From a virus: 27,323 nt of DNA. A program made the position numbers and the translations under genes. The number at the start of each line of letters is the position of its first letter. Position 1 is the stretch's first letter. Location of the stretch: positions 1 to 27,323 of IMG/VR virus record IMGVR_UViG_3300021963_000537, one strand, 5' to 3'. The notes beneath the pieces were generated by a model. It saw nothing but the letters and a program-made list of their open reading frames with translations, was not told the DNA's origin and ran no database searches. Shown one piece after another: positions 5,004 to 25,293 of this stretch.

Positions 5004-5560
5004 CACTCCTCCTGCATTGCGTCGGTGATGACGCGGTAGGCGTCCTCAGGCGACAGGTTGCTGGTGTCAAGTGTGAGGTCTGCATAGGCATCTGTCCAGC
5101 CCCTCTCGGTGATGTCGTCAGCCCCGACCAGTTCGCCGCCGCGACGAGCTGCCCTGACCTCTGCCGAGGCAGTCAGGCGAACCACGAAGATGGTCGGCTC
5201 CACGAGCTTCAGATACGCCACCTCAGCGTCCAGGCGCACGTCCTCGACCACGACGCCGTAGTCGTGGCGCCGAATCTCGGCGTAGTCCTGCTCCCATACT
5301 CTGAGCCAGAACTTAGTGTCCACCTTTCGGAGTCCAGCGCCAATCTCCTGAAGCAACTCCCTGCCGGTGACCATCTCATCTCCACCAATGCGGCTCACTG
5401 GGAACCGCTCCTCCTTGCTGAGGCTCGGATAGGCGAGGTTCGCCACATGCTTGATGGCGTCGGCAATGCCATGCCGCTGGTAGCCACGATGCTCCTCAAA
5501 GAGCGAGGCGATGGTGGACTTGCCACTGCCCTGCGGCCCTAGTAGCGCGATGCTTCTCAT
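5003..5560 (-). CDS. deoxynucleoside monophosphate kinase
   Basis: A 185-aa P-loop kinase. The Walker A motif is GPQGSGKST at residues 8-16; a substrate/lid region with several arginines follows, and VVVEDVR (about 108-114) supplies the acidic strand. Its size and layout match phage dNMP kinases of the T4 gene 1/T5 type, which phosphorylate deoxynucleoside monophosphates to raise the dNTP supply. The start ATG overlaps the upstream stop by 4 nt. It is the only nucleotide-metabolism enzyme that I see. An adenylate-kinase-like or other small-substrate kinase is the alternative. Confidence 0.75.
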   Translation of the reverse strand: MRSIALLGPQGSGKSTIASLFEEHRGYQRHGIADAIKHVANLAYPSLSKEERFPVSRIGGDEMVTGRELLQEIGAGLRKVDTKFWLRVWEQDYAEIRRHDYGVVVEDVRLDAEVAYLKLVEPTIFVVRLTASAEVRAARRGGELVGADDITERGWTDAYADLTLDTSNLSPEDAYRVITDAMQEE

Positions 5561-5919
5561 GCTGCCTCCACTGCTGCATACCAGTCTCGGATGCGTTGCT
5601 TGAAGCCCTCAAGGTCGCACGGCTCAGTCATCCATGTGCCGTTGCGGATGACGGTGAGCTGCTCGATGACGAGATGCGTGCCTTCGTTCCAGCCTGTGGC
5701 AACGAACACCTTGAAGCCAGACTTCTTGCTCAATGCCTCCAAGAGAATCTTCTGCCCTCCAGAGATTTGCTCCTCCGGCTTCTTGAACTCGCCAAAGAGA
5801 AACCTCCCTCTCCTCTCAAAGATAAAGTCCACGTTGCTTGGCATCACCTTCGGCTTATCTGGAATGACTCCCTCAAGGTCGGCAAAGTCAATGTGCGGAG
5901 CCGCTCCGTTTCTCATCAT
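5557..5919 (-). CDS. PD-(D/E)XK nuclease-like protein
   Basis: A 120-aa protein. PSNVDFIFERRGRFLFGEFK carries a D (about residue 31) followed by ExK (E44, K46) on consecutive strands. A glutamine in the next helix (SGGQKILLEAL) completes a PD-(D/E)XK-like nuclease core. The rest is short and helical. The start is the first of two ATG codons, overlapping the upstream stop as ATGA. It may cut or trim DNA in replication or recombination. The similarity is at motif level only, so an inactive or different fold is possible. Confidence 0.55.
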   Translation of the reverse strand: MMRNGAAPHIDFADLEGVIPDKPKVMPSNVDFIFERRGRFLFGEFKKPEEQISGGQKILLEALSKKSGFKVFVATGWNEGTHLVIEQLTVIRNGTWMTEPCDLEGFKQRIRDWYAAVEAA

Positions 5920-6359
5920 GCTTTGGCTCCTCTCGCAATAATCTCGCCAACTGACAACACGCCTCGCGCTTTAGTAAGAGTCTGCTCTTCTCTTATCTTC
6001 TCTTCTCTTCTCTTCTCTAGTGCGTGACCGAACCGTGACATAGGCTCTTTTTGAGCGCGAGCGCGTTGCTGTCGCTGAGCCGACGTCGGGTCGACTTGCC
6101 ATCGAGACCAGTTCGAGACGGTCACGAGACCGCTCTGAGACACCTCTAGCAAGCCCTCGGCAATCAGTCGAGGCACTGCCCTTCCGAGGCGTGGCCCGAT
6201 GACCGTTGCAAGGTGCGCCCGGTCGCGGAACTCGCCACCTTTCCGCATCTCCTTCGCCACCTCAAGGATGGTGATGAACGCGCGGAACTGCGTGTCGGTC
6301 AAGCTGCTGATGACCGCATCCTTGTGCGCCTGTGCTGACCACTTAATCCAAAGATTCAT
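5916..6359 (-). CDS. winged-helix replication-type protein
   Basis: A 147-aa protein. The N-terminal 100 residues (MNLWIKW..., then LTDTQFRAFITILEVAKE, a glycine turn, HLATVIG and GLLEVSQSGLVTVSNW) have the outline of the winged-helix N-domain of phage replisome organisers and DnaD-like initiators. The C-terminal part is a charged helix EKRREEKIREEQ followed by a short tail, and the usual helicase-loader domain is missing. It is therefore either a minimal initiator or a regulator. The ATG lies just after the endonuclease VII-like gene. The charged helix is encoded by a striking purine repeat, described separately. With no polymerase or helicase nearby, it would recruit host replication proteins. 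Confidence 0.6.
   Translation of the reverse strand: MNLWIKWSAQAHKDAVISSLTDTQFRAFITILEVAKEMRKGGEFRDRAHLATVIGPRLGRAVPRLIAEGLLEVSQSGLVTVSNWSRWQVDPTSAQRQQRARAQKEPMSRFGHALEKRREEKIREEQTLTKARGVLSVGEIIARGAKA
5985..6018. repeat. purine-rich AGAGA short tandem repeat
   Basis: About seven tandem 5-nt units lie here. On the minus strand they read AGAGA, with one AGATA and a final AGAGC variant. The tract lies inside the winged-helix replication gene and encodes the Glu/Lys/Arg-rich helix. On the plus strand it is a pure pyrimidine tract (TCTTC units). Length change by slippage would shift the reading frame, because the unit is 5 nt. Confidence 0.8.
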
Positions 6360-6360
6360 T

Positions 6361-6717
6361 TCAGTCCTCCTCCTGTCCTAGATAAGCCTGAACGACAGAA
6401 TCCAGCCGTCGCAGGTGCTTGTAATACTTAAGACCCTTGTTGCAGAACGCGCATAAGATTCCGCGAACTTTGCCGCTCGTGTGGCTGTGGTCGATGTTTG
6501 CCTGATAAGGCTCCGAGAGCCGAATCTCGCGACCGCAGATTGCACAACCGCCAGATTGCCGACGCAGCATTTCCTCGGCCTCGTACACGGAGATTTTGTA
6601 GTGATTCAACCGACTGCGGAGATTCCTGAGTGCTTTCTCCTCTGGGGTCTCCTTCGCCCGCACTACTTCGTTTCTAGCAGCCTGTGGCGTCCGTAGAAGT
6701 TGTCTTCGGCGTCCCAT
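6361..6717 (-). CDS. endonuclease VII-like HNH nuclease
   Basis: A 118-aa protein with the recombination endonuclease VII pattern: CAIC (residues 58-61), the His-Me finger IDHSHTSGKVRG (75-86) and the second zinc pair with its following segment in CAFCNKGL. The N-terminal 50 residues are basic and helical. The start is ATG in a TGATG overlap with the Rad52-like gene. T4 endonuclease VII cuts Holliday junctions and other branches before packaging. Small relatives in actinophages are often annotated this way, although many are probably simple nickases. A second, longer relative lies on the other side of the Rad52-like gene. Confidence 0.82.
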   Translation of the reverse strand: MGRRRQLLRTPQAARNEVVRAKETPEEKALRNLRSRLNHYKISVYEAEEMLRRQSGGCAICGREIRLSEPYQANIDHSHTSGKVRGILCAFCNKGLKYYKHLRRLDSVVQAYLGQEED

Positions 6718-7439
6718 CAGAACGGCAACTCTTCGAGGCTCTCCTCTGGCACCAACTTCGGTGCTGCAGGAGCCTGCTTCGCCACAAACTCGCGGCTCGG
6801 CTTGTCCTTGCACCAGCCGCCGTCAGGCGTCTTGTGAGACGCAGCCCAGAAGGGGTTGTAGGGCTTGCCGGTCCCCTTGCTCACGCCGCCTGGCTTCAGC
6901 GTCCAGAGTTCACCGTGGCTGCATGTCTCCCCGCCGACGTTCTCGGCAAAGAGCATTGCAGCCTTCGCTGCGAGGATGGCGTCATCCGTTGCTGCTCCAG
7001 ACCCCTCCGTAGAATCAACGGAGAGGGGTGTAGGAGCCACGGAGAGGCGCGGAACCCTCCCAAGTGGTACTGGGACACCCTTCTCTGGTGAATAGAGGCT
7101 CCTGCCCACTCCTAGCTGCGCGGCGCACCTGCGGAGCGCATCACTGGCCGCTGACTTCAGCGGCTCGTCATCCTGTGCCGAGTTCGGGTAGCCGAAGTCC
7201 TGTCGGATGGTTGTCTTCCCACCGATGACCACTGCCAGCGAACCATGCACGACGTTGCGTGCGCCGTCCGCGACCTTCACCTCAAACTGCCAGCACTCAA
7301 TGCCGAGGACGTCATCTAGCCGCTGCGCGACTGCTCGCGCATCTGCGTAAGTGAACGTCATGCCGGCACGCCCTGGGCGATGCTTCAAGTCCTTCTCCTC
7401 GAACGGAGCGAGTAGTGCTGCTGCGATGTCCTTGCTCAC
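6717..7439 (-). CDS. Rad52-like single-strand annealing protein
   Basis: A 240-aa protein matching the Rad52/Rad22 N-terminal annealing core. It starts LLAPFEEKDLKHR, then TFTYADARAVAQRLDDVLG (about 28-46) and the second half GSLAVVIGG...DFGYPNS...SAASDALRRCAAQLG (66-110), the conserved end of the DNA-binding domain. A linker follows, then a small C/H-rich region (C173, H175, C210) around VSKGTGKPYNPF. The last residues EESLEELPF are an acidic tip ending Pro-Phe, like the SSB C-terminus. The GTG start overlaps the upstream stop as GTGA. With the YqaJ-type exonuclease next door it forms a two-component recombinase: exonuclease makes the strand, Rad52-like protein anneals it. Confidence 0.82.
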   Translation of the reverse strand: MSKDIAAALLAPFEEKDLKHRPGRAGMTFTYADARAVAQRLDDVLGIECWQFEVKVADGARNVVHGSLAVVIGGKTTIRQDFGYPNSAQDDEPLKSAASDALRRCAAQLGVGRSLYSPEKGVPVPLGRVPRLSVAPTPLSVDSTEGSGAATDDAILAAKAAMLFAENVGGETCSHGELWTLKPGGVSKGTGKPYNPFWAASHKTPDGGWCKDKPSREFVAKQAPAAPKLVPEESLEELPF

Positions 7440-7864
7440 TTTGTTGCTCCCATCTGCGGCGATGTCGCCGCGCTGAACTCCAACGCCCATGCGATGAAGT
7501 CTCTGTGCTTTTCCACTACGCCGAGCCAGCGGTTGTGATTCCTGCAAAGCGCGCCCCTGACGCACTTCCCGCAAGAGCGCAACTTGACTGGACAGCACTG
7601 GTGATTGTGGTCAATCTCCAGAGGTCCTCCGTGTCCCTCTCCTGGGTAATAGCATCCAGCTGCAAGAATCTCTTGCACGCGCTCGATGCTGATTGAATAC
7701 CGCCTCGCCCTGTCCTCACCGCTGCTAACCCTGCGGCGAGAATAGGCTGCAAGGTATTCCCTCCTGTCGCGTCGCTGCGCGCGATGGATGCCGCATAGGA
7801 CCTGCCCCTCCTTCTCCTTCCTGACAGGTCCACCGCACTCGGTGCAGGTGAGGGCCTTGCTCAT
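7436..7864 (-). CDS. endonuclease VII-like nuclease with extra zinc pairs
   Basis: A 142-aa protein. An N-terminal CTEC and later CGIH form a first zinc site (residues 7-27). A basic arginine-rich helix follows, then the endonuclease VII His-Me finger LEIDHNHQCC (82-91) and the closing RGALCRNHNRWLG (103-115). It starts with ATG in an ATGA overlap with the exonuclease gene. It probably nicks or resolves branched DNA, as known for T4 endonuclease VII, but the small size and missing dimerisation region leave the substrate open. It sits between the exonuclease and the annealing protein. Confidence 0.83.
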   Translation of the reverse strand: MSKALTCTECGGPVRKEKEGQVLCGIHRAQRRDRREYLAAYSRRRVSSGEDRARRYSISIERVQEILAAGCYYPGEGHGGPLEIDHNHQCCPVKLRSCGKCVRGALCRNHNRWLGVVEKHRDFIAWALEFSAATSPQMGATK

Positions 7865-20827: not shown

Positions 20828-21106
20828 CTAGATGCCTCCGATTTGTAGGACGCTCACTTTGTCACCAGGGTTGGTGGCGATAGCATACAACTGCACCCGC
20901 TCAGGAACGAGCATCGTGATTGGCAAACCCTTGTGCAAGATGTAGCCGTTGTTCACGGTCACGTTCGCGCCTCCGACGTAGATGGTCGAGCTACCACCAG
21001 CCTCTGCGTATAGGTGGAAGGTTGAAGAACCGACGAGTCCCTCGCCAAGCGGGGTTGCCGCTGTGCCGATGGTGACCTGCCTCTGGCTGATGCGCTGCTC
21101 GCTCAT
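20828..21106 (-). CDS. small beta-rich virion-type protein
   Basis: A 92-aa protein of about ten predicted strands. The core STIYVGGANVTVNNGY, then PITMLVPERVQLYAIA and SVLQIGG, looks like a small phage domain often encoded between capsid and connector genes or added to head-fibre proteins. It could decorate or stabilise the capsid. The ATG overlaps the preceding 55-aa ORF as ATGA. Assignment rests on position and fold impression only. Confidence 0.58.
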   Translation of the reverse strand: MSEQRISQRQVTIGTAATPLGEGLVGSSTFHLYAEAGGSSTIYVGGANVTVNNGYILHKGLPITMLVPERVQLYAIATNPGDKVSVLQIGGI

Positions 21107-21342: not shown

Positions 21343-22497
21343 TTAGACGTTGGCTGACTGGTACGACTTCACTGCTGAAGCCTGTGCAAGTCCGGTCGCG
21401 CCTCGAACCTCAACCTTGTACGAGACAAGGCCAGTGTTCCAAGCGTACTCGCGGCTCACGTCCACGCGGACGCCACCGACGAGTGCCGTGTAAATCTGCC
21501 CGAGGTCACCGAACAGGATTGCGCCTGCGGTGTTGTCGGTCAGGTCAATCAACGCTGCGCTGTAGATAGGCGCGCCCAACAGTCGGTCAGGAGCGTTGCT
21601 ATCGCCTGCGCGGAAGATTGGCTGCCCGTAGGTATCTACGAGACCCGTCACAACGCCGAGCGTCGTGTCGTTCATCAACCAACCCGCCTTAGGAGCGCGT
21701 CGGTAGACCTGGTTCACAGAAGCCTTGAGCTTGGCGAGGTCGGTGTAGGTCGGATTGACCGACGCCGTGCCAACGCCTGTTGCGCCAACGTTCGCGGCCG
21801 CAGCAATCGCGGTACCAGCGAAGGAACCGTGAGCAACTGCAACTTCAGCGCCGCACTTGTCGGCAATCATGCCGGCGAGGTCGAACACTGCATCTTCCAC
21901 AAGCTCTTCCGAGACCTGGATGATGGTCGCGTACTTGATTGGGGTGAGGGACAGCGCGCTGAGCGTTCCGTCTGACTCACCGATTGTTCCAGCTTCAGCA
22001 ACTGAACCAGCGGTTCCAAGCGCCGTGACGCGTGGGAACTGGATGTTGTTGCCGGTCGCCGTGCGAACCACGGTGACGATGCCTGGGTCAAGGAATGGGT
22101 TGAACTGAGCGGCCACTACGTTCACGCGGTCGGCGATGGAAACTGGGTTCCCAAGTCCGGTTGCGCGGGTCACATCGCGGTACTCAAAGGTCTTGCCGCC
22201 GCCATTGCGCCCAAGAGCGCGCAGTTCGGCAACTTCGTCGTCAGACTTCTCAGCCTTCGGAGCGATGACTGAAGCGAACTCGGCGCGAACTGCATCAGCG
22301 GCGCTGCGCGCCTCTGCTGCCGACTTCTCGCTGCGAATCGCCTCAGCGATTACACCAGCCTCGGCTGTAAGAGCCTCGAACTGCTGCTTCTTGTCGCCCT
22401 CAAGGGCGACGCCCGACTCAGCCGCTTCAGCGACGATGCTCGTCGCCTGCGTGAGCAGGTTTGCACGTGTCTCGTGCAGCTTCTTGATGTCTGCCAT
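21343..22497 (-). CDS. HK97-fold major capsid protein
   Basis: A 384-aa protein of the HK97 phage major capsid family. Residues 1-75 form a charged coiled coil (KKLHETRANLLTQATSIVAE onwards), the delta domain that acts as a built-in scaffold and is normally removed by the prohead protease. The core begins near GNPVSIADRVNVV. The middle shows IKYATIIQVSEELVEDAVFD and the end GGVRVDVSREYAWNTG, both typical of the A and P domains. It has a strong ribosome site (AAAGGAGTCTGACCAAA before ATG). The 112 nt in front of it contain no clear gene; I see no strong promoter there. Confidence 0.9.
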   Translation of the reverse strand: MADIKKLHETRANLLTQATSIVAEAAESGVALEGDKKQQFEALTAEAGVIAEAIRSEKSAAEARSAADAVRAEFASVIAPKAEKSDDEVAELRALGRNGGGKTFEYRDVTRATGLGNPVSIADRVNVVAAQFNPFLDPGIVTVVRTATGNNIQFPRVTALGTAGSVAEAGTIGESDGTLSALSLTPIKYATIIQVSEELVEDAVFDLAGMIADKCGAEVAVAHGSFAGTAIAAAANVGATGVGTASVNPTYTDLAKLKASVNQVYRRAPKAGWLMNDTTLGVVTGLVDTYGQPIFRAGDSNAPDRLLGAPIYSAALIDLTDNTAGAILFGDLGQIYTALVGGVRVDVSREYAWNTGLVSYKVEVRGATGLAQASAVKSYQSANV

Positions 22498-22609: not shown

Positions 22610-24109
22610 TTAGAGCGATTCAGACTCCATGCGCGCAAGCACGAGCCGAGCCTCTGCGATTGAAGGGTCAATCGCTTCGGACTTTGGCGCGAGTTTCTCA
22701 CGCACGGTGTCAATCACCTCGACGTCCTCAGCCGTCAGCGGGGTCGCTGACTTGATGGACTCGATGGCTGAGATGAGGCGGTCGCCGTCCACGCCCATGC
22801 GCGAGGCAACCTTGCGAACGCTGGTCAAGCCAAGCGTTGCTGGGTAGGCAGGTGTCTGCCCGGCGGAGAGGACTGAGACCTCAAAGAGATTGACTTCGCG
22901 CAGCGTGCGCGTGTCCTCATCCCACTCGTCGCCGTTCTTTGGAATCGTGAAGCCGAAGGACATGCCCATCGCACGAGCCTCGTGCGTCAGCTTGGAGATG
23001 ACGCCTGCAGCATCTGGGTCGGCTGGGTCGAGGCGAGCCTCAACCTTCAAGCCGCGCTCGTCTTCGGTCAGCGCGAGGCGGCCGCTTGCGGTGGTCGCAA
23101 GTGCGCGTGTCTCGTCATGCCCGAACAGGAAGGAGACAATCTTCTTGCCGTCTGCAACGCGGGAGAGCGTGCGACGGAAGGCGCCTGGAGCGATGACCTC
23201 GGTGAACGGAAGTCCAGCCGAAGGTGCGCCGAAGAGCGCGGCGTAGCCGACAAAGGTCTTCTGTCCGTCTTCGCCTTCGGTCACGGTGAAGTCGCCCATT
23301 GGAAGAGCGCGTGTCTCAAGTTCCTTCACGTCAAACCTCTCTTCAGTTTCTAGTGGCGCGAGTACGCCATCTGCCCATTGTAGAACCCTGTCTGTGCCGT
23401 TCTCTGCTGTGGGGTCTACGCCCCAAAGATAGGCGGCAACTGCGCCTGGTCCTGGGAAGTTGTCATCCTGTGGATTGCTGTTGCGCGGTACGCCTTCCCA
23501 ATCGCCACGGTGTCGCAGAATCCATGCGCGCATGCGCGTGACCTTCTCGTCCTCGACTTGTCCAGCGCGCAACTGGCGCGCTTCCTCAACCGTCTCTGGC
23601 TGCAAGCCGTCACCGGCAAAGCCGTTGTCGAAGTAGGTGATGCCCTTCGCGGCTGCCATCTGGATGTATTCAGGCACGTCAATCAAGACGCGCATCTCGT
23701 CGTCGCTCTCCTCGTCATCAACGGTCAGCGCCATCGCTTCGTCTGGCGTGTAGGCGAGGATACCCATGCCCTCGGCCGCGTCGCGTGCCTCGGCGTCGTT
23801 GTCTACGAGGAAGGCAATCTCGTCGCCGTACTCTTCCTGCAACTTGGAATACTTGTATGCCTTGAACGCTTCGTTCACGGCTGGATTGCTCTCGCCAAAG
23901 TCCTGAAGGTGGATTTCCTTGTACGGCACGAGGTTCTCATTGAGCCATCGCTCAGTCTCGGCAAGGCGTGAGATTGGTCGAGCAGAAACCACGATGACCT
24001 CCGCGCCGAAGTCGTTGGCTTGACTCTTGAGCCAGTCAATGTATGGCTGATTCGGCGTGTCGCCGCTGGTCGTCAGCGTGCCGTCAATGTCGGTGATGAT
24101 GTAGCTCAC
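22610..24109 (-). CDS. HAD phosphatase - HK97 prohead protease fusion
   Basis: A 499-aa protein in three parts. Residues 1-125 are a HAD-type phosphatase: DIDGT (D7 and D9), VSARP with S42, and FLVDND (D103, D105), like the phosphatase domain of polynucleotide kinases. Residues about 150-260 hold a helical module (GITYFDNGFAGDGLQPETVE, RMRAWILRHR, then PGPGAVAAYLWG). I recall similar modules fused to phage peptidases. Residues about 265-435 are the U35 prohead protease with H331 (FGHDETRAL) and S384 (GMSFGF). The GTG start overlaps the portal stop as GTGA. An internal start before the protease is possible. The protease would cut the capsid delta domain; the phosphatase target is unknown. Confidence 0.85.
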   Translation of the reverse strand: MSYIITDIDGTLTTSGDTPNQPYIDWLKSQANDFGAEVIVVSARPISRLAETERWLNENLVPYKEIHLQDFGESNPAVNEAFKAYKYSKLQEEYGDEIAFLVDNDAEARDAAEGMGILAYTPDEAMALTVDDEESDDEMRVLIDVPEYIQMAAAKGITYFDNGFAGDGLQPETVEEARQLRAGQVEDEKVTRMRAWILRHRGDWEGVPRNSNPQDDNFPGPGAVAAYLWGVDPTAENGTDRVLQWADGVLAPLETEERFDVKELETRALPMGDFTVTEGEDGQKTFVGYAALFGAPSAGLPFTEVIAPGAFRRTLSRVADGKKIVSFLFGHDETRALATTASGRLALTEDERGLKVEARLDPADPDAAGVISKLTHEARAMGMSFGFTIPKNGDEWDEDTRTLREVNLFEVSVLSAGQTPAYPATLGLTSVRKVASRMGVDGDRLISAIESIKSATPLTAEDVEVIDTVREKLAPKSEAIDPSIAEARLVLARMESESL

Positions 24110-25293
24110 TGCGGCGGCTCCTGTCCGAGCGTGCCGATGTTGAGCGGCTTCCAGTATTCGTTGCCGCCATCAACCGGCGAGCGGTCTTCAAGTGCGCGCA
24201 CCTCGTTCACGTTGAGGAATCCATTGTTCAGCGCGGTGCTGTAGGAGTTGTATCGCTCCTGCGTCGTGGCGCGGAGCAGTCCGTCAAGCGTGAACTTGAG
24301 GAAGGTCTGCTGACTGCCTGGCACGAGTCGCTGGAACGCAGCCTCAAGTCGCGCGATGAGTGGGCCGAGTCCGAGTCGCAGCCACTCAATGCCAATCAAC
24401 TCGACAGAGGCGTATGACGTGTTGCCGCCTGGGTACTGGAGCATGTGCAGCGGCACGCCGTAGATGCGCGCGATGGCTTCCACGCCGTAGTGCATCGTCT
24501 CCACCAACTGCAGGTCGCTGATTTTCATGCCGAGTTGCTGATAGTCAGCGCCACCGGTGAGGACCGCTACGCGCCACGCCTTCTCCACACCTTCGTGTCG
24601 TCGGCTGAATCCAGAGCGAAGGCTCTCTGCCTGCTCTTGCGTCAACTCGCCTGGAACCTTGACCACGCCGCCGAGCGTCGTGCCGTTCTGGTAGAACTTC
24701 GCGCTGAAGATTTGCGTCGCGCTTGCGAGTCCGAGCGTCACTGCGTGATGCTCAACTGGGGAGAGTCCGCGATGGTTCTCTCCTGTTGCAAAGAGCGGGA
24801 TGTGGACAATCTCTTCTGCCGTCAGGACGACGTGACCCTCGCGAGTCTCCACGTGATAGAGCGGCTCGCCGAACTCGCCTGTCTTGATTTCTACTTTGTT
24901 CGGGTCAAGGACTCGCGTCTCAATCACATTGTCGGATGAGTCGCGCAGGCAGAGGATGAACGCATTGCCGTCAATGAGCAGGCTGGTCACCACTCGATGC
25001 TTGAAGTCAAAGGACGTGTAGTTCGGGTTGTTTGGGATTGGCGTGTCCATCCAGCGCGGTCGCGGTCGGTATGGTCGGCGCGTTCCGTCAATGCGGATGT
25101 AGGTGTCCCACGGCATGCCGGCAACGGTGTCGGCGTAGAGCTTCACGGCGGCATAGACGGCGCCGATGCTGGTTGCGTTCTCCTCGGTGACTCGGACGCC
25201 AGCGTAGTTGGGGTCTGGCGAGAACCATTGCCCACCGATTGTTCGCTCTTCTGGTTTTTGTTCGCGTCCGAGGATGCGGTCAAGTAGGCCCAT
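24106..25293 (-). CDS. HK97-type portal protein
   Basis: A 395-aa portal of the HK97 family. Typical segments are the start MGLLDRILGR, then SIGAVYAAVKLYADTVAGMP (44-63), FKHRVVTSLLIDGNAF, the stretch LSPVEHHAVTLGLASATQ and the C-terminal ERYNSYSTALNNGFLNVNEV. It forms the dodecameric ring through which DNA is packaged and the tail attached. The ATG follows GGAGAACA eight nt after the large terminase stop. No truncation is visible. Confidence 0.9.
   Translation of the reverse strand: MGLLDRILGREQKPEERTIGGQWFSPDPNYAGVRVTEENATSIGAVYAAVKLYADTVAGMPWDTYIRIDGTRRPYRPRPRWMDTPIPNNPNYTSFDFKHRVVTSLLIDGNAFILCLRDSSDNVIETRVLDPNKVEIKTGEFGEPLYHVETREGHVVLTAEEIVHIPLFATGENHRGLSPVEHHAVTLGLASATQIFSAKFYQNGTTLGGVVKVPGELTQEQAESLRSGFSRRHEGVEKAWRVAVLTGGADYQQLGMKISDLQLVETMHYGVEAIARIYGVPLHMLQYPGGNTSYASVELIGIEWLRLGLGPLIARLEAAFQRLVPGSQQTFLKFTLDGLLRATTQERYNSYSTALNNGFLNVNEVRALEDRSPVDGGNEYWKPLNIGTLGQEPPQ

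Follow-up and report, generated by a model that had tools for sequence, protein, structure and literature searches.

A HAD phosphatase module and a prohead protease share one reading frame

A gene of 499 amino acids lies on the minus strand at positions 22610-24109 of the window (the whole stretch of viral DNA analysed here, 27,323 nucleotides), with its stop codon at 22610-22612, and encodes a HAD phosphatase, a middle module and a Peptidase_S78 prohead protease. The start codon is a GTG, which is part of the sequence GTGA that forms a 4-base overlap with the stop of the portal protein gene directly upstream (24106-25293, minus strand), and a likely Shine-Dalgarno-like ribosome-binding site, AGGAG (24118-24122, minus strand), was recognised by sequence inspection 8 bases 5' of the start. 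Translation of the fusion gene is probably coupled to that of the portal gene. The major capsid protein gene (Phage_capsid; 21343-22497, minus strand) lies directly downstream, and the gene order is small and large terminase subunits, portal, fusion and HK97-type capsid protein. A preliminary description of this DNA had claimed one unbroken frame here, and the open reading frame is present. Every motif named in it (DIDGT, VSAR, FLVDND, H331 and S384) was found, with the catalytic residues invariant in 27 full-length relatives, and its layout of a HAD phosphatase, a helical middle module and a U35 protease is borne out by Pfam, PHROGs, AlphaFold2 and the relatives. Searching PDB sequences with the whole 499-aa protein returned chance matches only. 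A separate protease translated from an internal start at M139 was considered and judged unlikely; this Met is replaced by V, I or A in relatives.

The HAD phosphatase module covers residues 1-125 (23735-24109, minus strand) and was delimited with PHROGs, AlphaFold2 and Foldseek. Its conservation was counted over 84 distinct HAD modules located in S78 reading frames. Motif I is D7-I8-D9 (24083-24091, minus strand), in which D7 and D9 are kept in all 83 modules with data; motif II is S42 (23984-23986, minus strand; S or T in 84/84); motif III is K83 (23861-23863, minus strand; 84/84); and motif IV is D103 of VDND (23801-23803, minus strand; 83/84, the remaining one having Glu). R44, T52 and R109 are likewise kept in all 84. 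The AlphaFold2 model of this part has a pLDDT of 91.5, and its best PDB folds in Foldseek are T4 polynucleotide kinase/phosphatase, Pnkp1, lipin/Pah and the LNS2 domain of Nir2. The PHROGs polynucleotide kinase family phrog_415 matches residues 16-152 (E 2e-11), and the HAD families of Pfam stay under their cut-offs when the single window sequence is the query. Motifs I-IV (DxD, S/T, K, D) on a Rossmann-like fold place the module in the HAD phosphatase superfamily, and since the catalytic residues are practically invariant across the 84 distinct modules, the fused phosphatase is very probably active.

An acidic linker (residues 126-138; 23696-23734, minus strand), which has low model confidence, joins the HAD module to a helical middle module (residues 139-252; 23354-23695, minus strand) that is also found in the protease of Pontimonas phage phiPsal1. 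The Peptidase_S78 domain follows at residues 263-430 (22820-23323, minus strand), with the invariant catalytic residues His331 (23117-23119, minus strand) and Ser384 (22958-22960, minus strand). Pfam Peptidase_S78 matches residues 278-425 with an E-value of 1.5e-28 and 100.4 bits against a curated cut-off of 21, and the head maturation protease family phrog_80 matches the protein in PHROGs with an E-value of 3e-32. The score above the cut-off, the two invariant catalytic residues and the position between the portal and HK97-type capsid genes all identify this part as an S78 protease. In the full-length AlphaFold2 model, the HAD forms one body and the helical middle module another, with low-confidence linkers at residues 130-140 and 254-272; the alignment behind this model is shallow and its protease part is poor (pLDDT 68.5, pTM 0.32), and the model was used for the linkers only. 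The median dN/dS is 0.19 for the HAD module, compared with 0.48 for the acidic linker (the highest in the gene), 0.18 for the middle module and 0.11 for the protease.

The fusion recurs unbroken in independent contigs

Scanning IMG/VR with the full protein recovered about 40 full-length fusions with 65-99% identity. With the HAD part alone as query, 80 loci were fetched, and all complete genes among them run into the protease, with the exception of L106. In all, about 70 other public contigs carry an unbroken HAD/S78 fusion. The preliminary description had named a frameshift or assembly join between residues 130 and 260 as what would undo its proposal, and this is excluded by the complete genes at the 80 HAD loci, which (L106 apart) continue into the protease. 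The probability that a frameshift, an assembly join or a chance alignment explains the fusion is thus practically nil, as the same fusion occurs in many independent contigs and is under purifying selection at the codon level. One near HAD alone stops short of the protease: L106 (4001-4279), which has a stop at codon 94 in one contig.

In genome contigs scanned for prophages, the fusion alignment as query gave nothing in a first scan, and a second scan gave only S78 relatives without a HAD, the nearest being in a Microbacteriaceae metagenome-assembled genome. No HAD/S78 fusion was found in 200 Microbacteriaceae genomes.

The N-terminus is exchanged between close relatives

About 40 further loci share residues 119/139-499 of the window protein at 85-89% identity and have a different N-terminus. 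This alternative consists of a Cys-containing module of about 50 amino acids, which we label CGWA, followed by a CGNC...CNAW module weakly resembling HiPIP. The cultured Pontimonas phage phiPsal1 has the CGWA-CGNC form, and because its protease matches phrog_80 from the first residue, CGWA-CGNC may be the more frequent state in this protease family.

The exchange is sharp at the nucleotide level. Ahead of the swap, the contigs L032 (with the HAD) and L068 (with CGWA-CGNC) are 91-98% identical across most of 1.1 kb; identity drops to 34-56% across the HAD stretch and is back at 94-98% from about 100 bases beyond the swap. The pairs L010/L056 and L022/L078 show the same sharp swap. In four sets, identical S78 domains carry differing N-termini, and a tree of the S78 domains requires at least 10 changes between HAD and no HAD, although this is a quick tree in which many forks are weakly supported. 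A HAD relocated to another gene was searched for in 12 contigs that have the other N-terminus and include two of 29-30 kb; no match was obtained, while 11 of 11 positive controls were detected. Mixed forms also occur, namely CGWA-HAD (L136 and L144) and HAD-CGNC (the L115 group), and in L142 the HAD sits directly on the S78 domain with the middle module absent. As far as sequence comparison can tell, the HAD fusion is one state of an exchangeable string of N-terminal modules on phrog_80-type proteases. Matches to Arthrobacter korravirus upstream of the protease were weak alignments across the end of the portal gene and were not used.

Module strings in distant relatives

Distant HADs were found by scanning with the phiPsal1 protease and then with the HADs so recovered. 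HADs about 30% identical to that of the window sit at varying places in the N-terminal strings of distant S78 proteases, and the same strings hold Tudor-like Hva1, DUF3721, DUF5824 and ferritin/Dps-like modules. In the phrog_80 proteases of L040-L080 and L167-L246, the number and order of modules vary (CGWA, CGNC/HiPIP-like, DUF5824, DUF3721, Hva1 Tudor-like and helical middle), with weak to moderate Pfam support for these N-terminal modules. A HAD plus a ferritin/Dps-like domain (Pfam Ferritin E 1e-11 to 1e-15) precedes the S78 domain in L289 (4409-4830), L310 and L406, all on the plus strand. In L094 (4001-5842) and L095, an insertion of about 115 amino acids of no recognised kind separates the protease domain from the C-terminal tail that is conserved in the HAD fusion. 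Structural matches to the HAD in BFVD include other prohead proteases as well as three proteins that bear the name XkdF, and these names suggest that the HAD may also be fused to an XkdF-type protease. PF14550, looked for in 200 genomes, matched twice.

L318 (3788-5467, plus strand) has a CGWA-HAD-middle string and a GHDQLTHG linker, followed by a C-terminal part that has no S78 match. By eye this part is ADP-ribosyltransferase-like, and comparison with families and the PDB gave no match. The next gene (5470-6504, plus strand) has the same GHDQLTHG linker and a HEWGH metallopeptidase-like motif. The presence of the string on a non-S78 part indicates that the N-terminal string can detach from the protease, and a purely protease-related role for the string is hard to reconcile with L318.

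Possible substrates of the phosphatase

The preliminary description had proposed that the phosphatase could act on DNA ends during packaging. In this reading, which we regard as rather unlikely, DNA (or RNA) ends would be cleaned or repaired by the HAD module, acting as a polynucleotide 3'-phosphatase either during packaging or following injection. The phosphatase domains of PNKP are sequence and fold relatives of the HAD module, and the proposal holds to the extent that fold and motif class match them. A distant relative in L318 even exceeds the Pfam HAD_PNKP cut-off (38.4 against 27.6 bits), and a theme of genome protection would be in keeping with the ferritin/Dps modules that some of these proteases carry. 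The HAD of the window itself scores 15-19.6 bits against the same cut-off, and Acid_phosphat_B and LNS2/lipin folds match it just as well; as families, PNKP and acid-phosphatase-B are both near to the fused HADs.

In T4 Pnk, polynucleotide binding is aided by the region that follows motif II, and true PNKs have a MR..G...RKD-like pattern there. An alignment with a stand-alone relative in L292 and mycobacteriophage LeBron gp74 showed that the fused HADs do not conserve the substrate-binding region between motifs II and III of true PNKs, nor, within it, the Arg that follows the conserved Met, and that they have no insertion after motif I. It is for these two reasons that DNA-end processing, although possible, is not favoured by the sequence. 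In addition, neither Pfam nor PHROGs gave a match to a P-loop kinase domain in the window protein, so that it does not qualify as a bifunctional polynucleotide kinase, and no kinase or ligase partner was present among the window genes scanned. LeBron gp74 and T4 Pnk thus have HAD motifs and a fold in common with the window HAD, which differs from them in being without a kinase domain, in its unconserved PNK-type substrate-binding region and in its fusion to a protease. The substrate may be a phosphomonoester, possibly one derived from a nucleotide or nucleic acid.

A candidate route into the prohead

A single frame, joined modules, a conserved active site, purifying selection and N-terminal exchange against a fixed protease and fixed flanks are established at the level of sequence. 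It seems fairly probable that this prohead protease carries an exchangeable and catalytically competent HAD phosphatase at its N-terminus as prohead cargo. Since the HAD is made in the head operon, its product is plausibly inside the prohead; a prohead protease can do its work only once inside the prohead, and an attached HAD would be loaded along with it. The T4 prohead takes in 72 copies of its protease, of which 3 remain (PMC9026906). The internal proteins and Alt of T4 are head cargo that the prohead protease processes and that is ejected together with the DNA (PMC9026906), and DarA of P1 is cut by the P1 protease Pro and ejected with the DNA (PMC12810830). By analogy with these T4 internal proteins and DarA, the flexible linkers would be cut while the protease degrades both itself and the scaffold, and the phosphatase so freed would act in the head or be ejected with the DNA. 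Removal of the HAD through self-cleavage, which had also been suggested beforehand, is plausible on this analogy. Alternatively, the phosphatase might act before assembly. The likeness to T4 and P1 is an analogy confined to protease processing and co-ejection, and their cargo consists of separate proteins, unlike a HAD on the protease chain itself.

Against the cargo reading, the HAD is dispensable, as relatives without it are common. That it is one of several swappable add-ons suggests that the protease may ferry other enzymes into the growing head. A broader form of the cargo reading is conceivable, if somewhat doubtful: in this phage group, the protease N-terminus would be a general carrier site where close relatives swap enzymes and binding modules (HAD phosphatase, ferritin/Dps, Fe-S-like, Tudor-like and others) that are loaded into the head along with the protease and delivered or used there.

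The fusion within the head operon could merely set expression, with the HAD working late in the cytoplasm of the infected cell as a nucleotide or metabolite phosphatase whose synthesis is coupled to that of the head proteins. This explanation has a minor but real chance of being correct: the active site would be conserved wherever the enzyme works, coupled translation with the portal gene is probable, and stand-alone HAD relatives are known. Were expression all that mattered, however, the absence of any separate gene among the near HADs fetched would be unexpected, and the protease stays attached through the exchange, with L318 as the one exception found. Modules of many unrelated folds take the same place, which would also fit a HAD fold that serves as a structural bead of a scaffold-like N-terminus with its chemistry irrelevant; this is very unlikely, as a spacer does not need motif residues that are practically invariant at about 30% overall identity. 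Lastly, the modules might be anti-defence or superinfection-exclusion effectors that are exchanged fast in an arms race, and the exchange between near-identical phages would agree with such a role, which we nevertheless consider unlikely. Counting against it, we know of no defence target for a HAD phosphatase of this kind. In its favour, head proteins of T4 and P1 are anti-restriction factors (PMC9026906, PMC12810830).

Relation to known proteins

The phiPsal1 protein AUV61415 (S78/U35, phrog_80) resembles the window protein in its S78 domain with the conserved His and Ser, in its helical middle module and in its placement between the portal and major capsid genes, and differs from it, as does most of the phrog_80 profile, in having the Cys-rich CGWA and the HiPIP-like CGNC where the window has the HAD. 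The closest structural match in BFVD is A0A6J5R419 (BFVD/UniProt; uncultured Caudovirales phage, 501 aa), whose HAD is 66% identical with a TM-score of 0.97. It apparently has the architecture of the window protein and was already deposited, annotated only as 'Prohead protease', the name under which such proteins are already stored in UniProt-derived structure libraries.

No description of a HAD/prohead-protease fusion was found in the open-access literature, with subscription papers and preprints lying outside the search, and proteases are absent from the main text of a survey of phage domain shuffling (PMC10684548). The preliminary description knew of no established family with this pair; its account is incomplete in that the fusion is no isolated pair and is common in environmental contigs, as one arrangement among several. 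The label 'prohead protease' conceals a second enzyme in many records. Prohead proteases are usually viewed as single-purpose, self-destroying enzymes; here, complete enzyme modules appear to come and go on near-identical proteases, and the phosphatase is apparently kept catalytically intact. If it is true that the modules enter the head, they would offer a natural route for loading enzymes into capsids, and the roles of unexplained head-borne enzymes would become testable.

Host and other genes of the window

Outside viral contigs, the Microbacteriaceae metagenome-assembled genome contains the nearest relatives, and the nearest isolate phage infects Pontimonas; an actinobacterial host is likely. 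A small gene of about 90 amino acids is alike by eye in three phages (window 20828-21106, minus strand; L002 3536-3805; L318 3543-3809). Its place differs: the window has it behind the capsid gene, in phiPsal1 it immediately precedes the gene for the protease, and in L318 it precedes the HAD gene. The window also holds, on the minus strand and in a small genome, two endonuclease VII-like genes (6361-6813 and 7436-7864) and one HNH gene (1293-1604), which is near the contig end and adjoins a group 1 glycosyltransferase gene (59-1276).
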